22,537 bases of DNA, from positions 1-22,537 of the forward strand of contig JALGWK010000028.1 of NCBI GenBank assembly GCA_025774205.1. Direction: 5' to 3'. Within the stretch, counting starts at the first letter, position 1, and every line of letters begins with the position of its first letter. The notes beneath the pieces were generated by a model, which was given only the letters and a program-made list of their open reading frames with translations, made no database searches and was not told the DNA's origin. The translations under genes and the position numbers were made by a program. Positions 8,516 to 21,465 of this stretch are shown piece by piece. Source of the stretch: a bacterium (GTDB lineage: Bacteria > Blakebacterota > Blakebacteria > Blakebacterales > Blakebacteraceae).

Positions 8516-10849
8516 TCAGCTCATTCCTGCCTGATCTTCTGACCTTCGACGTTTCAGGGCATAGAACAGGTTGAGGAGCTGGTCGGTGGTCTGTTCGGGG
8601 GAGAATCTGGTTGCCTGTTCGACAGCGATACCGGAAAGCCGGTCATATTCATCCCTGTCATCGAGGAGCTTCCGCATCTCGCCGATCCAGCCCTCGATAT
8701 CATCGGGTTCAAGGATCGGCAGGCCCTCAGCCTGCACCTCGGGCAAACTGCCGCCGGTCGATACGATCGCCGGGGTGCCGCTGGTCATCGCTTCAACGAC
8801 CGGAAGGCCGAATCCTTCTTTCAGTGAAGGCTGCAGCAGGGCGACCGCATGACGATAGAGCGCCCCCAGATCGCGCGAATCGATCGACTCGATCCATCTG
8901 ATCGATCCCGGGATACCCAGTTCCTCCTCCAGTCGGTGGAGGTCGGACCCTTCAGCACGGCTGCCGGCCAGTACCAGCAGCGCCCCGGGATGCGTCTCCA
9001 GCAGTCGCGGCCAGGCCCGCAGCAGAATCGCGACGTTCTTGTGGGGCTTGAAGTTGCCTACCACCATGAAGTAGGGACGGGTGATCGAGAACCGGTTGAG
9101 ACAGATCTCATCATCAAGCACGACTTCGGGCCGGAAGTGGGCTCCGGCGCGCTGATGAATGACGCGGATCCTCTCCCGCGGTATCGCGAGTGATGACCGA
9201 GCTTCATAGGCGGAAGCATCCGAGACCACCACAATCGCTGTCGATTGCCGGCATGATCGTTCTAAATACCATTTCATCCACCAGCGTCCCAGCCCGCTCA
9301 GGCCTCCCATCTCAGGCGGCAGGGTGAGCTGCATGACATCATGGATGGTGGATACCACCGGACAGGGCGCCCTCCAGGGTGTCTTCGGATAGGGGGAGAA
9401 AAACAGATCGGGTCTGTCACGGCGAAGGGCGCGGGGAAACACAACCTGGTCTACGACCGGTGCCGCTGACCTGTTCAACACCCGGTAGGTGATCCGTTCA
9501 TCATTGATCAATTCGATGTTTTCGGAGTGCTGGTAGAGGATCCACTGCCACTCCGGTCTCACTTCAAGAGAGCGCCTGATGATCTCTTCGAGAAACCTTC
9601 CAATCCCGGTATACCTGCCAGGGACCCACTCCCGCGCATCGGCAGCGATGACCATCTCCGAACGGAATTCCCCCCCCCCAGGTATCACCCGATCGCTGAA
9701 ACCTTCGGCGCGAAGATCCGGATCCCGGATCATCGCCAGTTGATTCCGGACCGCGCTCAGGACATCATCCACCGGGATCAGGCTCATGCAGTCGTAGGGA
9801 GTGCATTCGTCCGAGCGTTCCCGGGCCAGGGCTCGATCGAAGGTCACCACCTGGTGGTCAGCCCCCCACGGACCCCACTCATGATGACTGTCGAGGGGAT
9901 GAGTGGCCCCGAATATCGCCACCACCGGTACCTGAATGGCCGTGGCCATATGCATCGGACCGGTGCTGTTCCCCAGAAACAGGTCACATCGGCCAAGAAG
10001 TGACACCAAGGTTGTGAGCGGGAATCCACACGCGACGACCGGCTCTTCCTCCATCAGTCCGACAACCTCTTCGATGAGGTTCAGTTCCCCGGCCGATCCG
10101 GTCAACAGTACCGTGACGCCATGCATCCTGATGAGAGTGTCAGCAACAGCAGCGAATCCCACCTCGCTCCAACGGATGTATTCCTGTCTCGCGCCGGGGT
10201 GTATAGCGACTGTTACTCCTTCGATTCCTTCCCGTTGGAAGAACTCCTCGGCCTCTGTCTCTCCCTCCCTGGTCGTGGAGATCATCAATGACCTGTCAGT
10301 TGTGCTGCACCCGGCCAATCTGGCGATCTCGAGGGCGGAGCGGACCTCATGCCTGATGCGAACGGCGCGGTCATCCTTCTGTCGCCGGGTCAGATAGAAT
10401 CCTCCACCGGCGCCGGTATACCCGATCCGTACCCTGGCCCCGCTCAGCCAGGCTAACCGGTTCTGCCGGAGCCCCGGGTGCAGAACCAGGGCGACATCTG
10501 CATCGTGGATGAGAATCCGGTCAACACAGGGGTTGCTGACAACCAGGTCGCGGGTGTAACCGGCTATGAGCAGGTCGACGTCGGCCTCCGGCCAGGTCTC
10601 CCTGACAGCCCTGAGGACCGGCGTGGAGAGGATCAGATCCCCGATCCTGTCGATACGGATGATGAGCACCTTCCTGACGGGGTCGGGCCAGGTTTCCTTC
10701 CATCGCCCGGTCACGAGTCGCGGCAGGGCAATGAGGAGGTGTCCACCCAGGTCGAACAGACCGTAGAGCAGGCGTCGGGCTATCCGTCCGATATCGCTGA
10801 GGTTCGTCACACCGAGCCGGATGAGCACTCTCTTCAGGAAGTCCTTCAC
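8516..10849 (-). CDS. Bifunctional glycosyltransferase: GT9 (heptosyltransferase-like) fused to GT4
   Basis: One 777-residue frame encodes two whole enzymes. After a basic amphipathic segment (1-58), residues 61-372 form a GT9 domain with the heptosyltransferase motifs RIDRIGDLILSTP at 65-77, IHPGAR at 216-221, LLTGS at 248-252, GNSTGPMHMA at 293-302 and AIFGATHPLD at 311-320. Residues 399-760 form a complete GT4 domain: the classical opening VIAADARE then GRYTGIGRFLEE at 411-422, STIHDV at 500-505, YFMVVGNFKPHKN at 593-605, and intact EX7E (E678, E686) in KEGFGLPVVEAMTSG. Met399 is exactly where a free-standing GT4 would begin. The linker contains a G10 run (coding strand; 9670-9679). Translation starts at GTG in a 4-bp GTGA overlap with the upstream gene, indicating an operon. 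The domains probably add successive sugars, heptose or another for GT9; specificity is inferred only by family. Confidence 0.88.
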   Translation of the reverse strand: MKDFLKRVLIRLGVTNLSDIGRIARRLLYGLFDLGGHLLIALPRLVTGRWKETWPDPVRKVLIIRIDRIGDLILSTPVLRAVRETWPEADVDLLIAGYTRDLVVSNPCVDRILIHDADVALVLHPGLRQNRLAWLSGARVRIGYTGAGGGFYLTRRQKDDRAVRIRHEVRSALEIARLAGCSTTDRSLMISTTREGETEAEEFFQREGIEGVTVAIHPGARQEYIRWSEVGFAAVADTLIRMHGVTVLLTGSAGELNLIEEVVGLMEEEPVVACGFPLTTLVSLLGRCDLFLGNSTGPMHMATAIQVPVVAIFGATHPLDSHHEWGPWGADHQVVTFDRALARERSDECTPYDCMSLIPVDDVLSAVRNQLAMIRDPDLRAEGFSDRVIPGGGEFRSEMVIAADAREWVPGRYTGIGRFLEEIIRRSLEVRPEWQWILYQHSENIELINDERITYRVLNRSAAPVVDQVVFPRALRRDRPDLFFSPYPKTPWRAPCPVVSTIHDVMQLTLPPEMGGLSGLGRWWMKWYLERSCRQSTAIVVVSDASAYEARSSLAIPRERIRVIHQRAGAHFRPEVVLDDEICLNRFSITRPYFMVVGNFKPHKNVAILLRAWPRLLETHPGALLVLAGSRAEGSDLHRLEEELGIPGSIRWIESIDSRDLGALYRHAVALLQPSLKEGFGLPVVEAMTSGTPAIVSTGGSLPEVQAEGLPILEPDDIEGWIGEMRKLLDDRDEYDRLSGIAVEQATRFSPEQTTDQLLNLFYALKRRRSEDQAGMS
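9670..9679 (-). repeat. G10 homopolymer at the GT9/GT4 domain boundary
   Basis: Ten consecutive C on the plus strand read as GGG GGG GGG G in the coding strand (Gly391-393 and the first base of Glu394). The gain or loss of one base would shift the frame and stop translation within roughly 40 codons by my hand translation. It is the longest G or C run I noticed in the window. Confidence 0.9.
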
Positions 10850-12698: not shown

Positions 12699-13811
12699 GT
12701 GCTTTGTGCCGTGAAGACAGGCCGAGTGAGGCAGAGATTGAAGCGATTCGCGTTTCTGGTTGGAATTGTGTTCTTTGCGGGCTGCGCAGGTAATGCTTCT
12801 CTCAGTGACCTGACGTCACAGCCCATACAGGAAACCGCCATCCCCATCGCCGGTCAGCAGCTGTCCCCTGAACGACAGTGGAACCGACCCTTTCAGCCCC
12901 AGTCAAACAGCACTTTTATGATGATCGACGGGATCCCGTATTACCGTATCGGGCCCGGTGATATCATGGAAATGCAGGTCTATCTCAATCAGGCATCCAC
13001 CACCTTCACGTTGCAGGTTGATCCGGCCGGTGACATCAGCCTTCCGGCCCATATTTCCCGGGATCGGATCAGGATCAGCGGGTTAACAAATTCTCAGGCC
13101 GAAGAAGCGCTGCGCAGTCACCTCTCCCGCACACTCCGGCTTCCCCAGGTTTCACTGAGAGTCGAAACCCATGGCAGTTCTTTCGTGACCCTGCTCGGTG
13201 AGGTCGGTGGGAAGACGAATACCGGAGATTCGGGCGAGGGACGGTATGCCATCACCGAACGGACCACGTTGCTTGAATTCATCCTGGCCCATTCCGTATT
13301 CAATGACCAGAGCGACAAATCGGCAGTCATGGTGACCGACGCGACCGGCCGGAGCGGCATTTTCGATCTCTCCACGGCCATGTACGCAGCTGATCAGAGT
13401 CAGAATCCGGTTCTCGACCGGGGTGACAATGTCCTGGTTCCCTCCACCACCGTCACGCGGAGCAGGATTTTCGTCATCGGCGAAGTCGTCAACCGGAGCA
13501 TGCTCCAGCCCCGGACAGGCATGACCGTACTTGACGCAATAGCAGAAGCGGGCGGGCCCACGGAGCAGGCCCGTACGAAGTGGGTGACTCTCGTCCGGGG
13601 TCGGGGGACCGATGCCAGGCTCTACCAGATCCCCTTCCGGAAAATCTGGAGAACGGGAGATATGGAGGCGAATGTTACCCTCATGCCCGGCGATATCATT
13701 CACCTGGGCACCAGCACCTACGAGTCGGTAATGAAGTTCTTCCGTGAAAGCTGGGCGATCATGCAGACCGCGATCGTAGCCACCATCCTCATAGACACAA
13801 TCAATCCATAA
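12699..13811 (+). CDS. Outer-membrane polysaccharide export lipoprotein, Wza/BexD-like
   Basis: This protein would form the outer-membrane and periplasmic export channel for the polysaccharide. A basic N-terminus (RQRLKRF) precedes a hydrophobic stretch and the lipobox FFAGC, with the lipidated Cys at residue 29 when counted from GTG 12699. GTG codons at 12711 or 12726 would give a shorter, more typical 20-25-residue signal peptide and may be the real start. The Poly_export domain begins YRIGPGDIMEMQVY at 82-95 and runs to about 155. Two SLBB domains follow (about 160-250 and 256-337), with VTLLGEVGG and FVIGEVVNRS as their opening strands. The hydrophobic C-terminal segment after 343 is consistent with the barrel helix of Wza. 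The TAA stop shares its last A with the ATG of the Wzc-like gene. Confidence 0.92.
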   Translation: MLCAVKTGRVRQRLKRFAFLVGIVFFAGCAGNASLSDLTSQPIQETAIPIAGQQLSPERQWNRPFQPQSNSTFMMIDGIPYYRIGPGDIMEMQVYLNQASTTFTLQVDPAGDISLPAHISRDRIRISGLTNSQAEEALRSHLSRTLRLPQVSLRVETHGSSFVTLLGEVGGKTNTGDSGEGRYAITERTTLLEFILAHSVFNDQSDKSAVMVTDATGRSGIFDLSTAMYAADQSQNPVLDRGDNVLVPSTTVTRSRIFVIGEVVNRSMLQPRTGMTVLDAIAEAGGPTEQARTKWVTLVRGRGTDARLYQIPFRKIWRTGDMEANVTLMPGDIIHLGTSTYESVMKFFRESWAIMQTAIVATILIDTINP

Positions 13812-16690
13812 TGGCCCGCTACGAACTGAATCTCCGCGACTATTACCGCATCCTCCGGCGACACCTGATCGTTATCGTTGCGGTGACGATCGGCCTCGGC
13901 GGGCTGTCGTTCGTCATGGCGCTGGAATCCCGCATAGAACAGACGTACACGGCTACCTCCAGGGTCCAGATATCCCAGGTCAGCAACATCGTCGACCTGG
14001 TGCTCCAGACGTTCACCTACAGCTCGGGAAATTATATCGCCACCCAGTCCATGCTGATCTCCAGCCAGCCGGTCCTCTGGGAGACGATCAAGCTGCTGGA
14101 AACATCGATCGATACTTCTATCACCTTCCAGCAGGTGCTGGCTGACGACGATCTCAAAGCTCGGTATTGGGACCTGATCAGGAATTACAGCGGATCGATC
14201 CAGGCCGAGCAGGTCGAATACTCGGGGCTGATCGATATCGTTGCCACCGAGAGCACCATGCAGCGGGCCATGGAGCTGGCCGAAAAGGCTGCTGAAGGCT
14301 TCAAACGGTACAGTCGCATCCAGGCCAACGAACAGAATGAAGAGGCAGAACGGTGGATTTCCGATCGGCTGATCACTGTTCGCAGCGACCTGCGTGCTCT
14401 CCAGGATTTATTGAAGACAGTGCGCCAGAGGACCATTTCCTTTTCAAGTTTCGACGAAAATTCACTGTCGAGACTGATTGAACGTCGCACCACTCTGGAG
14501 GATCGTACTTCCACCCTTACAGAATTGAAGATTCGGCTGATTGAAGGACAGGTGGGATTCTCCACGGTCGGTGCTGCCGTCGATCCGACCATTCTCACCC
14601 AGTACGCGGAAAGCTATTCCGAACTGTCACTCCTTCTGACCAACCGCGGTCAACAACTGCTTACGTATACCGAGAACGCTGAGCCGATCCGCATTCTCGA
14701 TGAGAGAATCAGGACTGTTAAAAGGGAGCTGATCAGTTCGATCGACAGGGACCTGGAGCTCCTCCGGAGCAGCCTGTCAACGTATGACCGTCTCCTCGAG
14801 GCCTTCCCCGACGAAGAGATCGAGATGGCCACCCTCTTGAGACAGGTCGAATTGAAGACCGAGCTGGTCACCCAGCTCGAGAGCAGCATGGAAGAGGTCA
14901 AGATCAGGTCGGCCAGTACGCGCGGGGAAGTGAGTATTGTCGGTTATCCCATCACAGCTATAAGCCGGCAGACTGGAGGAGTACCATTAAAAACCATCAT
15001 CGGTCTCCTGCTCGGCTTCATGCTCGGCATCGTCATCGCTTTCATCGTCGAGACGATGGATACCTCGATCGGGACGATCGAGGACGTCGAGGAGTATCTT
15101 GAAGTTCCGGTCCTGGCGGTCATTCCCCACCTGCCGGTGGAGAGGATGGTCGAGCAGCTCGTGGAGCAGAATCCCCAGCTGGCGGGTCATCCCTTCCTCA
15201 ACATGTTCGCGCGGCTTATCACCCAGTACGATCCGAAGTCACCTGCTGCTGAGGCCTACCGAACACTGCGAACCAACCTCCAGTTCGCGATCGGTGGCGC
15301 GGGGGAGTCGATCGAGCAGAAGAACACCTTCGTCTTCACCTCTTCGAGCCTGCAGGAGGGGAAGTCAACGACCATGGCCAACCTGGCCATCACAATCGCC
15401 CAGGCGGGCAATCGGGTCCTCCTCATGGGCTGCAACATGCGGCGTCCTACCATTTATAAGTCGTTCGGTCTGACTCTTGAGACCGGGATGACCGATATCC
15501 TGACCGGACAGAAGGAGTGGCGCGAATGCGTCAAGGGCATCACCGACATGATGGTTGGCCCCCTGAGCCTGCAGAACATCATGCAGATGCCCGGTCTCGA
15601 CAATCTGCATATCGTCACGTCCGGCAGCATCCCACCCAACCCCTCCGAGCTTCTCAGCTCACCCCGATTCAGCGAGATGATCAAGGAAGCCAGCGAAGAA
15701 TACGACTACGTTCTGGTTGACTGTCCGCCGGTCCTGCCGGTGACCGACGCTGCCATCGTTGGACGCCAGGTCGACTGGTCGGTCCTCATCTACCAGGTCG
15801 GCAAGGTACCCAGGAACGCGCTGCGCCGGGCGAAGTTCCATCTCTCCAATGTAGGTGCCCACGTTCTCGGTCTCGCCATGAATGATGTGAAGGCGGAGAT
15901 CGGCGGTTACTCTCCTTACAGCCAGTACATGATCAAATACTACGGAGAGGAGACGCAGGAGAAGAAGACCCTGTTCGGCATGGTGAAAGGGATCTTCAAG
16001 AAGCGTGAACCGAAATATAAAGAGAAACGGGAACAGGATCGACCGGAGTCCCAACTGATCACCCATGATCAATCCGGATCTCCCTGGATCAAGGTGGATT
16101 ATTTTGACGACCTCGAGCACGAGTCCACAGAGGGAGAAGTGGCACCAGAACGACCTGATATTGAGATCACCGAGCCGGACCGGGGGGAGAGGGGGGTGGA
16201 GGATGAGGACACCGGAGAGAGATCGCGGAAACGACGGATTCCCCTCTGGATCTGGATCGTACTGGCCGCGGCTGTGATCCTGCTGGTGGTGTCCATACTC
16301 CTCGGCCCCTCTTCTGATACAACCGCCCAGTCACTCTATACGCCACCGTCCACCGCCATCGCGGAGAGAGCAACTCTGCCCCCGGTCGAAACACCCGCTG
16401 CCCATGAACAACCTGTTACCGTTGTCTCCATCTGGACCGTCCACGTCGGTTCCTTCAGAACCCCTGGGGAAGCCGAGTCACTGAGGATTCTGCTCGGCAA
16501 TCTGAATCTGACCGGTACAAATCGGGTATGGACCCGGATCGAAGAGGTGCCGGGTCTTGGCCGATGGCACAGGGTATTCTTTGGCATGTACGAGGAACAG
16601 GTTGAATGCGCGCGCGGAGCGGAACTGCTGCGCGGAACAGGGCAGGTCACCCAGGCACGGATCCGTCGGGTGACACCTCCCTCTCCATAA
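13811..16690 (+). CDS. Wzc-like polysaccharide co-polymerase / BY-kinase-type protein with C-terminal SPOR domain
   Basis: A 959-residue inner-membrane protein controlling chain length and export. In order: Wzz domain with TM1 (about 19-38); a long helical, coiled-coil-rich periplasmic region; TM2 (about 392-416) followed by ETMDTSIGTIEDVEEYLEVP, the usual Wzz exit; and a cytoplasmic BY-kinase domain (about 465-715). The kinase has Walker A QEGKST (K518) and Walker B LVDCPP (D637). Walker A' is GCNMRRP at 540-546, where the family consensus is DxDxR, so both acidic residues are missing. A tyrosine cluster (Y700, 703, 706, 710, 711) would normally end such a protein. Here a charged linker, TM3 (about 810-832), a Pro/Thr-rich spacer and a SPOR-like domain (about 875-955; WTVHVGSF to RVFFGMY) follow. 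Topology places SPOR in the periplasm. The kinase-region and SPOR assignments are by pattern; activity is uncertain. Confidence 0.9.
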   Translation: MARYELNLRDYYRILRRHLIVIVAVTIGLGGLSFVMALESRIEQTYTATSRVQISQVSNIVDLVLQTFTYSSGNYIATQSMLISSQPVLWETIKLLETSIDTSITFQQVLADDDLKARYWDLIRNYSGSIQAEQVEYSGLIDIVATESTMQRAMELAEKAAEGFKRYSRIQANEQNEEAERWISDRLITVRSDLRALQDLLKTVRQRTISFSSFDENSLSRLIERRTTLEDRTSTLTELKIRLIEGQVGFSTVGAAVDPTILTQYAESYSELSLLLTNRGQQLLTYTENAEPIRILDERIRTVKRELISSIDRDLELLRSSLSTYDRLLEAFPDEEIEMATLLRQVELKTELVTQLESSMEEVKIRSASTRGEVSIVGYPITAISRQTGGVPLKTIIGLLLGFMLGIVIAFIVETMDTSIGTIEDVEEYLEVPVLAVIPHLPVERMVEQLVEQNPQLAGHPFLNMFARLITQYDPKSPAAEAYRTLRTNLQFAIGGAGESIEQKNTFVFTSSSLQEGKSTTMANLAITIAQAGNRVLLMGCNMRRPTIYKSFGLTLETGMTDILTGQKEWRECVKGITDMMVGPLSLQNIMQMPGLDNLHIVTSGSIPPNPSELLSSPRFSEMIKEASEEYDYVLVDCPPVLPVTDAAIVGRQVDWSVLIYQVGKVPRNALRRAKFHLSNVGAHVLGLAMNDVKAEIGGYSPYSQYMIKYYGEETQEKKTLFGMVKGIFKKREPKYKEKREQDRPESQLITHDQSGSPWIKVDYFDDLEHESTEGEVAPERPDIEITEPDRGERGVEDEDTGERSRKRRIPLWIWIVLAAAVILLVVSILLGPSSDTTAQSLYTPPSTAIAERATLPPVETPAAHEQPVTVVSIWTVHVGSFRTPGEAESLRILLGNLNLTGTNRVWTRIEEVPGLGRWHRVFFGMYEEQVECARGAELLRGTGQVTQARIRRVTPPSP

Positions 16691-16697
16691 GTCGAAT

Positions 16698-18165
16698 ATG
16701 GCATCCTTCACCACTGACGATCGTGTAATCGGCATCGGATTGGCGGTGGTGGTTGGAGTGCTGTGTATCGTCTCGGCCCAGGCCATCTCGAGCACCGACA
16801 ATATCATCGGGCTGGCCATCACCCTCGGTATCCTGGTCCTTCTCATATGTTTCTTCTGGCCGGAGGTGGGACTCTATATCCTCGTCCTCTCCATGCTGCT
16901 GGGTCCCGAGCTTCTCGTCGGAAATCTCGCGGGCGGCGGAACCGGCTCGCGCGGAGTAACCCTGCGGGTTGATGATTTCCTTATCCTCATCATCGCCTTC
17001 GCATGGTTCGCCAGGGGAGCGATAAACAAGGAACTCGGACTCTTCCTCAGTACGCCCCTGAACCGGCCGATCGTGGCGTATCTGCTTGTGGCGGTGGTGA
17101 GCACGGCGGTCGGGATGCTCTTCGACCGGGTCAGGCCGGTGGTCGGGTTCCTGTTCGTGCTGAAGTACATCGAGTACATTTTCGTCTATTTCGCGGTGGT
17201 GAACTTCATCACCACCAAACAGCAGATCCGGCGTTTCGTCTGGGTCATCTTTCTTACCGGTATCCTGGTCGCGATTTATGCCAGCCTCCAGATACCTGGC
17301 GTTGATCGGGTGACCGCTCCCTTCGAGGGGGAGGCGGGCGAACCGAATACCCTTGGCGGATACCTGATGTTCCTGATGGCCCTGTTCGCGGGTCTGCTCG
17401 TCACCTCGGGCGGACTCAAGTCCGCCCTGCGATTCACCCTCGGCCTCATCATCCTCGGGATCCCGTTCCTCTTCACGCTTTCGAGAGCTTCTTATCTCGG
17501 GCTGCTGGTCGTGGCGATCGTCATCGTCGCCCTGACGCGCTACAAGCTCATTGCTGCCCATTGCTGCCTTCACTCTGACCATATTCCTGCTCGTGATCAT
17601 CCTTCTGGCTCCTCCCGCGGTGGTGGATCGGGTCAATTACACCTTCGGAGGACAGGTGTCGTCCGTCGGCCAGGTGTCGGTCGGCTCCATCAGGCTCGAT
17701 ACTTCGACGTCGGCCCGGCTGTTCGTAATGCAGAATATCCTGAGAGATTTCCCCAAGCAGCCCCTGCTGGGCTATGGCGTGACCGGGTATGGTTTCGTGG
17801 ACGGCCAGTATCCCCGGGTTCTGATCGAGATGGGGCTGCTCGGTATGGCAGCCTGGCTCTTCCTGATCTTCTCTCTCTTCAGAGAGGGCCTGAGATCGCT
17901 GCGCTCGACAGACGATAGATGGGAGCGTGGGCTCTCTATCGGATTCATAGCCGGTCTGGCCGGACTGATGATCCACGCCCTCGCATCGAACACCTTCATT
18001 ATCGTCAGGATCATGGAACCGTTCTGGTTCATCGCCGGCATCGTGACCGTACTGAGGATGATCAACACCGGAGAGATCGAAGAAGAATCCACTGGCGTGT
18101 TGCCTGTCGAGGAGGGGCGGATCTCGACCGGTCTGATCAGTCCCCTCGGCGGGAGACCGATGTGA
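16698..18165 (+). pseudogene. Wzy/O-antigen ligase-like membrane protein, frameshifted by a 10-bp duplication
   Basis: Two frames make one protein. The first runs from ATG 16698 through residue 287 and then reads nonsense to a stop at 17918. The second takes over at about 17560 and ends at 18165. Removing one copy of a perfect 10-bp tandem repeat (17549-17568) joins them into a 485-residue product with continuous hydrophobic helices, ...RYKLIAAFTLTIFLLV.... The product is a polytopic membrane protein of the O-antigen polymerase/ligase (Wzy_C) type: EPNTLGGYLMFLMALF and the FTLSRASYLGLLVV segment precede the break, and the periplasmic loop plus RLFVMQNILRDFPKQPLLGYG follow it, the latter typical of ligases and polymerases. 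It would polymerise or ligate repeat units in the periplasm. It may be a pseudogene, a switched-off state, or a sequencing artefact. It starts seven bases after the Wzc stop. Confidence 0.85.
17549..17568 (+). repeat. Perfect 10-bp tandem duplication inside the Wzy-like gene
   Basis: CATTGCTGCC is present at 17549-17558 and again at 17559-17568. Ten bases shift the frame by one, which is exactly the offset between the two halves of the interrupted gene. Deleting either copy restores a single open frame. Confidence 0.95.
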
Positions 18166-20658: not shown

Positions 20659-21465
20659 ATGTACCTGGAAAACTGGAATCTGGACCGGATGCCGTTCAAG
20701 AACACCCCCGATCCGGATTTCTACTATCACTCTCCTCAGCATGAAGAGACCCTGAGCCGGATGCTCTTCTGCGTGCAGAATGACATGGGCGCGGCTCTTC
20801 TGACCGGTGTCTTCGGGTGCGGTAAAACGCTGGTCATCAATCTGCTCAAGTCACGTCTCGACAAGGCCAACTACCGCTTCATCGTGGTCTCCAACCCCCA
20901 GCTCAATGACCTTGAACTCCTCCGGATGATCCTCATCAAGATGGGCCTGACGGCGGTCCCGGAGAACAAGGCTGATGTCGTTCAATTACTCGAGGATGCG
21001 CTGCTGAACAACTATCGGGACGGGCGGGAGACCATCCTCATCATCGATGAAGCCCATATCATCGAGCAGAAAGAGACCTTCGAGGAGATCCGTCTCCTCC
21101 TGAACTACCAGTCTGACGGGAAAACTCTCCTGAGTCTATTCCTGGTCGGTCAGCCGGAACTGGGACTGAAGGTGGATCTCAACAAGCCGCTGTCGCAGCG
21201 GTTGGCGATGCGGGCTCATCTGGGACCGTTCACAGAGGCGAACACTACCGATTATATCCGCCACCGCCTTACGACCGCCGGCGCCAGTAAGGACCTCTTC
21301 ACGCTGAAGGCGTATGAACTGGCTCATGATCTGAGCGGAGGCATCCCCCGCAGGATCAACAACATCTGCAACCTGGCGCTCCTGCTCGGGGCGTCGCGTC
21401 AATTGGCTGAAGTGGATGAGATGGTCATCTACGATGTCTCCCGAACCCTGGAGGGAGAGTATTAG
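20659..21465 (+). CDS. ExeA/GspA-type AAA ATPase of polysaccharide loci
   Basis: A 268-residue P-loop ATPase. The N-terminus YLENWNLDRMPFKNTPDPDFYY is the signature opening of the ExeA / XrtA-associated ATPase group (YxxFxxxxxPFxxTPDPxFxY). Walker A is GVFGCGKT at 50-57 (K56), Walker B is ILIIDEAH at 126-133 (D130, E131), sensor 1 is FLVGQPEL at 161-168, and the arginine-finger region is SQRLAMRAHLGP at 179-190. GGIPRRINNICNLALLLG forms the lid-domain sensor 2. It ends soon after the AAA lid, with no C-terminal peptidoglycan-binding domain such as ExeA carries. Family members often sit beside Wzc/Wza genes and are thought to assist assembly of envelope export complexes. The exact role here is inferred. 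Confidence 0.88.
   Translation: MYLENWNLDRMPFKNTPDPDFYYHSPQHEETLSRMLFCVQNDMGAALLTGVFGCGKTLVINLLKSRLDKANYRFIVVSNPQLNDLELLRMILIKMGLTAVPENKADVVQLLEDALLNNYRDGRETILIIDEAHIIEQKETFEEIRLLLNYQSDGKTLLSLFLVGQPELGLKVDLNKPLSQRLAMRAHLGPFTEANTTDYIRHRLTTAGASKDLFTLKAYELAHDLSGGIPRRINNICNLALLLGASRQLAEVDEMVIYDVSRTLEGEY

Follow-up and report, generated by a model that had tools for sequence, protein, structure and literature searches.

The window analysed in this study, the whole 22,537-nucleotide stretch of contig JALGWK010000028.1, harbors a gene encoding a Wzc-like protein, that is a polysaccharide co-polymerase (PCP) of class 2a joined to a bacterial tyrosine kinase (BY-kinase), whose chain continues behind the tyrosine cluster into a third transmembrane (TM) helix and a SPOR domain. 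Both the predicted glycan-binding face of the SPOR domain and the Walker A' motif of the kinase deviate from the canonical form. The protein may serve to tether a Wza-Wzc export conduit to the cell wall.

A Wzc-like protein with a third membrane helix and a SPOR domain

The gene is a single open frame (13811-16690, + strand) of 959 residues without internal stop. Residues 1-712 are Wzc-like (TIGR01007, 169 bits, cut-off 108), with E. coli Wzc as best match in the PDB (E 2.7e-38). The Wzz region (PF02706, 25.4 bits, cut-off 25.5) and the GNVR region (PF13807, 25.6 bits, cut-off 27.7) are found at the expected places with scores marginally and slightly below the respective cut-off; the latter region (residues 341-412) precedes and overlaps TM helix 2. 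According to our own reading of the alignment, the BY-kinase domain appears to contain an insert near residues 573-593 compared to typical Wzc. The following features were assigned to the gene:

13811..16690, + strand: whole gene, Wzc-like PCP-2a/BY-kinase with third TM helix and SPOR domain, 959 residues (single open frame, TIGR01007, ortholog)
13850..13906, + strand: TM helix 1, residues 14-32 (hydropathy; Wzz family match at residues 5-94)
14975..15073, + strand: TM helix 2, residues 389-421 (hydropathy; PF13807 match)
15209..15910, + strand: BY-kinase domain, residues about 467-700 (TIGR01007, TIGR03018 and PDB Wzc matches; alignment)
15911..15946, + strand: tyrosine cluster SPYSQYMIKYYG, residues 701-712 (sequence)
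15947..16228, + strand: charged cytoplasmic linker, residues 713-806 (sequence; 54% identical to the ortholog)
16229..16327, + strand: third TM helix, residues 807-839 (hydropathy; positive-inside pattern)
16328..16426, + strand: Pro/Thr-rich, poorly conserved periplasmic spacer, residues 840-872 (21% identical to the ortholog)
16427..16675, + strand: SPOR domain, residues 873-955 (Pfam; AlphaFold2 and structure comparison; FtsN profile match)

PCP-2a proteins of the Wzc type have two TM helices and end after the tyrosine tail. In the window protein, 247 residues follow the tyrosine cluster, comprising the linker, the third helix, the Pro/Thr-rich spacer and the SPOR domain; an earlier reading of the window made from the letters alone (the sequence-only reading) had counted 248. 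The helix, which that reading placed at about 810-832, has its core at residues 814-832 (Kyte-Doolittle maximum 3.01), and 120 residues still follow it. SRKRR is located on its N-terminal side and an uncharged stretch on its C-terminal side. Lys and Arg average 4.2 in the 15 residues before helix 3 and 2.3 after it, with more of them before the helix in 44 of 52 relatives possessing a third helix. Since the kinase is cytoplasmic and helix 3 follows this positive-inside pattern, the SPOR domain is expected to be periplasmic, which agrees with the topology previously proposed from the three helices. The genome also encodes a Wza-type exporter and two lipoprotein-like SPOR genes, as expected of a diderm.

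The identity of the tail domain was assessed with sequence profiles and with a predicted structure. Searched alone, the tail matches Pfam SPOR (PF05036) with 23.9 bits (E 5.3e-5, cut-off 21) at residues 875-941. The score was 24.3 bits in a SPOR scan of the whole genome, where the gene is one of three SPOR genes, and 19.7 bits, slightly below 21, when the full protein was scanned. The tail of the only close ortholog (JALGVQ010000044.1, L034/L005), which stems from an independent metagenome-assembled genome (MAG), scores 38.9 bits (E 1.1e-9). A profile built from both tails matched a single chain in the PDB, the SPOR domain of E. coli FtsN (1uta, E 0.011). The AlphaFold2 model of the tail contains, in tail numbering, a strand at 51-59, a helix at 62-73, strands at 83-90 and 94-104, a helix at 107-119 and a strand at 127-131, with a per-residue confidence (pLDDT) of 74-93 in this block. 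The predicted fold is thus the beta-alpha-beta-beta-alpha-beta, RNP-like arrangement with the six SPOR elements in order. It aligns to the SPOR domain of Pseudomonas aeruginosa RlpA (6i05 and 6i09, the latter in complex with denuded glycan) at Z 11.4 and to Bacillus subtilis CwlC (1x60) at Z 10.1, compared to about 6 for unrelated folds; Foldseek E-values to SPOR structures in the PDB are modest (2e-3 to 8e-3), and the Z-scores are the stronger evidence.

The assignment as a SPOR domain is confirmed by the significant Pfam match together with the predicted fold. A frameshift, or a separate gene encoding the tail, is ruled out by the single frame and by the same layout in the ortholog, so that the sequence-only reading holds for the match, the fold and the continuity of the chain.

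The ortholog is 65% identical over the full length. Identity is 21% in the spacer (dN, the rate of nonsynonymous substitution, 1.01) and 52% in the SPOR domain (dN 0.38), with synonymous sites near saturation; the SPOR domain is therefore under stronger constraint than the spacer. The kinase domain is 91.5% identical between the two species (dN/dS about 0.04).

The predicted glycan-binding face of the SPOR domain

Denuded glycan is the ligand of the SPOR domains of FtsN, DamX and RlpA; it is read via main-chain contacts, a conserved Gln (RlpA Q270, FtsN Q251) and a basic patch (RlpA R302/R309/R311, FtsN R285); FtsN W283 is needed as well (PMC6895207). Two positions of this face were located in the window protein:

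16442..16444, + strand: His878, at the position of the peptidoglycan-binding Gln (RlpA Q270/FtsN Q251; structure comparison, alignment; PMC6895207)
16565..16573, + strand: W919-H-R921, matching FtsN W283/R285 of the peptidoglycan-binding face (FtsN profile match, alignment; PMC6895207)

The window SPOR domain hence keeps the FtsN-type GSF, W919 and R921, while the Gln is replaced by His878, a substitution shared by the ortholog. Glu occupies this position in all 28 readable tails of family f85, and the Arg of strand 3 is lost outside the window genus, f85 included. Motif counts by regular expression missed some tails; on 40 domains, profile coordinates and an alignment were used to check the positions again. 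Of 28 other SPOR domains encoded in 16 of the same genomes, 27 have the Gln, compared to 1 of 12 attached to Wzc (Fisher p 6e-8, an optimistic value as the controls are higher-scoring matches, the profile rewards Gln and relatedness is uncorrected). One control domain also lacks the Gln, which is a functional residue and does not define membership of the family. Given this difference between controls and Wzc-attached domains, the binding face appears to be consistently re-tuned. Without the Gln, the domain probably prefers a glycan somewhat different from the canonical denuded strand. The change weakens a simple transfer from SPOR to septum and is still compatible with wall binding.

The only other SPOR genes of the window genome (L001 and L002, on contigs C474 and C136 of G000) encode lipoprotein-like proteins that retain the canonical Gln. 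This 86%-complete assembly showed no FtsN-like SPOR gene.

An altered Walker A' motif

The aspartates of Walker A', normally D-x-D, have a catalytic role in BY-kinases. This motif was found to be altered in the window protein, while the other two are intact:

15341..15370, + strand: Walker A, SSSLQEGKST, residues 511-520, intact (sequence, alignment)
15419..15448, + strand: Walker A' position, LLMGCNMRRP, residues 537-546, D-x-D replaced by G540-C-N542 (alignment; invariant in the ortholog)
15707..15730, + strand: Walker B, YVLVDCPP, residues 633-640, intact (sequence, alignment)

Walker A' is described to recognise the tyrosine and to initiate phosphorylation (PMC12004946), and autophosphorylation of the tyrosine tail of Wzc destabilises the octamer (PMC11986026, PMC12881504). 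Gly-x-Asn is present at this position in 34 of 106 compared sequences, belonging to the window genus, f85 and a few SPOR-less near relatives (window, L034, L037 and L065-L093), with Walker A, Walker B and the tyrosines intact. One f85 sequence has Asn-Ala-Asn; the wider Wzc sequences nearly all have D-x-D. The window protein therefore lacks one of the three motifs of an active BY-kinase (Walker A, the D-x-D of Walker A' and Walker B), and it retains motifs and C-terminal tyrosines that are all lost in pseudokinases of the EcpK type.

No second BY-kinase above the cut-off was detected in the 86%-complete genome. Because Walker A' is replaced in a domain that is otherwise strongly conserved between the two species, and no other BY-kinase scored above the cut-off, the kinase is likely to be non-catalytic or atypical. 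The sequences with Gly-x-Asn might form a clade of partly degenerate BY pseudokinases. The substitution, which was missed in the sequence-only reading, bears on the control of the machine.

Distribution of the architecture

Genomes were searched domain-wide and within phyla, with the full protein and a seven-row profile as queries. Among 52 tails of Wzc relatives extending past the tyrosines, 43 match Pfam SPOR, and the carriers are distributed over at least four phyla in the grouping of the search tool. The recurrence of the architecture, suggested as a check by the sequence-only reading, is thereby established. Carriers comprise 2 genomes of the window genus, 29 of family f85, 11 of families f54, f239 and f277 and 1 of family f138, of which a further member (L166) was confirmed separately. 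Three of the nine SPOR-less tails end at contig ends (L090, L098, L099), four have the third helix and a short tail and two have no helix; three of the nine were tested directly and six were assigned from tails too short for a SPOR domain. The architecture is rare in the domain-wide sample (6 of 386 genomes).

All carriers fall into one clade of the kinase tree (46 rows, support of 96 in the Shimodaira-Hasegawa-like approximate likelihood ratio test), together with relatives having the third helix only, and at least four changes of SPOR state are required on this tree. In family f191, which belongs to the same phylum as f85, 10 of 16 genomes carry pmoA; this suggests that the phylum is Methylomirabilota and that f85 is Rokubacteria-like.

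Five tails (L039, L046, L081, L085 and L166) contain tandem SPOR-like repeats and spacers of about 90 or more residues, compared to one repeat and a spacer of ~33 residues in the window protein.

Neighbouring genes and other possible wall anchors

The gene is flanked by two genes of the same pathway:

12699..13811, + strand: wza-like outer-membrane exporter, its stop codon overlapping the wzc start (Poly_export and SLBB matches)
16698..18165, + strand: wzy-like O-antigen polymerase/ligase, read in two frames (homologous to an intact 481-residue gene downstream of wzc in L034)

Homologs of the wzy-like gene elsewhere match Wzy_C, and the order wza, wzc and Wzy_C-type polymerase/ligase recurs among the relatives. 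The break in the wzy-like gene is located at 17560-17570 next to a short direct repeat and is either an assembly error or real.

An OmpA-type domain, which binds peptidoglycan in known proteins, is found N-terminally on the neighbouring Wza in 4 of 10 scanned SPOR-less relatives (L040, L048, L049 and L053) and in 0 of 15 cases beside a SPOR-bearing Wzc or a contig-truncated close relative; these counts are small and include related sequences. The Wza of the window was scanned and has no OmpA domain. The fusions beside SPOR-less Wzc proteins are:

L040, 3982-5418: OmpA-Wza fusion
L048, 2-1480: OmpA-Wza fusion
L049, 3748-5226: OmpA-Wza fusion
L053, 1-1476: OmpA-Wza fusion
L006: a further OmpA-Wza fusion

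This pattern hints that a wall anchor might be wanted which can be placed on either partner, as SPOR on Wzc or as OmpA on Wza.

In three genomes, ftsQ-ftsA-ftsZ are found upstream of the SPOR-Wzc operon, at a distance of a few kb and in the same orientation (L123 on G056:C7, L129 on G552:C109 and L134 on G509:C61). They represent three families of one phylum, which is not that of the window. Between ftsQAZ and the operon lie genes for a response regulator and a radical SAM protein, joined in L123 and L129 by one for a protein with cyclic nucleotide-binding (cNMP) and FHA domains. A search for ftsZ in 55 genomes found it close to the gene in none of the remaining SPOR-bearing genomes covered, among them all f85 genomes; in the window genus, ftsZ was located only in the sister species (G001), on another contig. 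A division-gene neighbourhood as a general rule was rejected, being confined to 3 genomes of one phylum.

Two further frames of the window were recorded. An AAA ATPase of the XrtA/PEP-CTERM-associated type (TIGR03015, ExeA-like) is encoded at 20662-21465, and a protein 40% identical to it is encoded in an f85 SPOR-Wzc cluster (L126:6028-6834). The frame at 8516-10849 (- strand, 777 residues) seems to combine a first half resembling a GT9 heptosyltransferase with a GT4-like second half, apparently as a fusion (GT, glycosyltransferase family).

Proposed role

With moderate confidence, based on the sequence comparisons and the tail model, the protein is proposed to be a wall tether for the Wza-Wzc conduit with an altered ligand preference, for which targeting to the division site is possible. 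The gene product would form the inner-membrane half of the conduit, extended C-terminally by the third helix and the SPOR domain. If it assembles into an octamer like Wzc, up to eight SPOR arms per complex would reach on flexible spacers into the peptidoglycan layer. Through these arms, the conduit would be held to wall glycan at its passage across the wall, and it might be favoured at sites of wall remodelling or division. The degenerate Walker A' is a sign that tyrosine autophosphorylation might matter less, or not at all, for the complex to assemble and come apart; positional or control input could come from the arm, which is directly connected to the tyrosine tail.

Several observations weigh against such a tether. 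Some members of the kinase clade have no SPOR domain, and several have neither SPOR on Wzc nor OmpA on Wza. The near-complete loss of the Gln among Wzc-attached SPOR domains, in f85 together with the strand-3 Arg, could mean that wall binding is lost altogether. Furthermore, full-length AlphaFold2 prediction from two sequences reached a pLDDT of only 36 and provided no usable geometry for a three-helix octamer.

Recruitment to the septum, as favoured in the sequence-only reading, would have the SPOR domain bind amidase-denuded septal strands and couple surface-polymer export to division. We consider this possible, though doubtful. The known ligand of the FtsN, DamX and RlpA domains (PMC6895207), the FtsN-type GSF, W919 and R921 of the window protein and the ftsQAZ genes beside the operon in G056, G552 and G509 argue for it, as does the Gram-positive precedent of CpsD, a capsule kinase at the division site linked to the cell cycle (PMC4574921). 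The idea is only partly supported: the window genus has His878 and the readable f85 tails have Glu where almost all other SPOR domains of the same genomes keep the Gln, and ftsQAZ is not a general neighbour.

A change of function, in which the SPOR fold would bind a ligand other than peptidoglycan, for instance the exported polysaccharide or the Wza ring, and act in the periplasm as a clamp of the conduit, is rather unlikely. Replacement of the Gln across lineages, with a strict Glu in f85, the loss of the strand-3 Arg outside the window genus and the tandem repeats of some relatives would fit such a function, and the jellyroll domain of E. coli Wzc already binds glycan within the machine (PMC12881504). 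However, the window SPOR domain keeps most of the FtsN binding face, and relatives use OmpA domains, which are wall binders, at a comparable place.

More speculative, and improbable as it stands, is a phosphorylation-independent class of exporters in which the SPOR arm would sense or grip a form of the wall and thereby set where and when Wza and Wzc assemble, so that control by the wall outside would take the place of the tyrosine-phosphorylation cycle inside. A chance or recent joining of SPOR and wzc, or an assembly error, is conceivable for a single MAG contig with a frameshifted wzy-like neighbour, but is highly improbable since the ortholog, which stems from an independent MAG, shows the same layout, as do 42 further relatives from four phyla, and the stronger constraint on the SPOR domain than on the spacer contradicts it.

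In diderms, the passage of capsule and exopolysaccharide machines through the peptidoglycan and the adjustment of their output to growth and division are poorly understood. The wall tether proposed here, a Wzc with a built-in predicted wall-binding domain, would provide direct access to both questions. With the altered Walker A', the phosphorylation-independent PCPs would come to include a single-chain Wzc whose active site is otherwise intact. Because the architecture recurs in four phyla, has an apparent alternative in OmpA on Wza and shows a changed SPOR residue, specific and cheap tests become possible.

Comparison with known systems

The window protein shares with Wzc and Etk the Wzz-type N-terminus, the long helical periplasmic region, GNVR, the two flanking TM helices and a BY-kinase with Walker A, Walker B and tyrosine cluster, as well as the adjacent wza and wzy genes. 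The chain of known Wzc contains two TM helices and stops behind the tyrosine tail (PMC11986026), whereas the window protein adds a linker of ~95 residues, the third TM helix, the spacer and SPOR, in addition to the kinase insert and the G-C-N at Walker A'. The BY pseudokinases EcpK and HfsB, which are phosphorylation-independent PCP-2 proteins, are similar in their BY-kinase fold, their Wzx/Wzy-type pathway and their altered catalytic residues. EcpK is a stand-alone protein that has lost all Walker motifs and the tyrosines (PMC12004946); in the window protein, only Walker A' is altered, the tyrosines are kept and kinase and PCP form one chain.

FtsN, DamX and DedD likewise consist of a cytoplasmic part, one TM helix, a low-complexity spacer and a C-terminal SPOR domain of the same fold, but the cytoplasmic part of the window protein is an export-machine kinase, and the key Gln is His. 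CpsC/CpsD of Streptococcus pneumoniae include a capsule BY-kinase with links to both cell cycle and division site (PMC4574921); they differ in being Gram-positive, split into two proteins, devoid of SPOR and localised by another route. By analogy, CpsD indicates that a coupling of capsule and cell cycle exists, brought about differently (PMC4574921). GspB/OutB of type 2 secretion offers a further parallel: an inner-membrane part is reported to anchor a trans-envelope export machine to peptidoglycan (PMC9239104), with other protein families and another cargo.

A literature search revealed no description of a protein combining SPOR with Wzc and tyrosine kinase, most subscription papers being outside its coverage; within the searchable literature, the architecture is as undescribed as the sequence-only reading had supposed. 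Both parts are known. What is apparently new, at least to us, is that they occur together and how widely they do so, as well as the re-tuned face of SPOR and the altered Walker A'.

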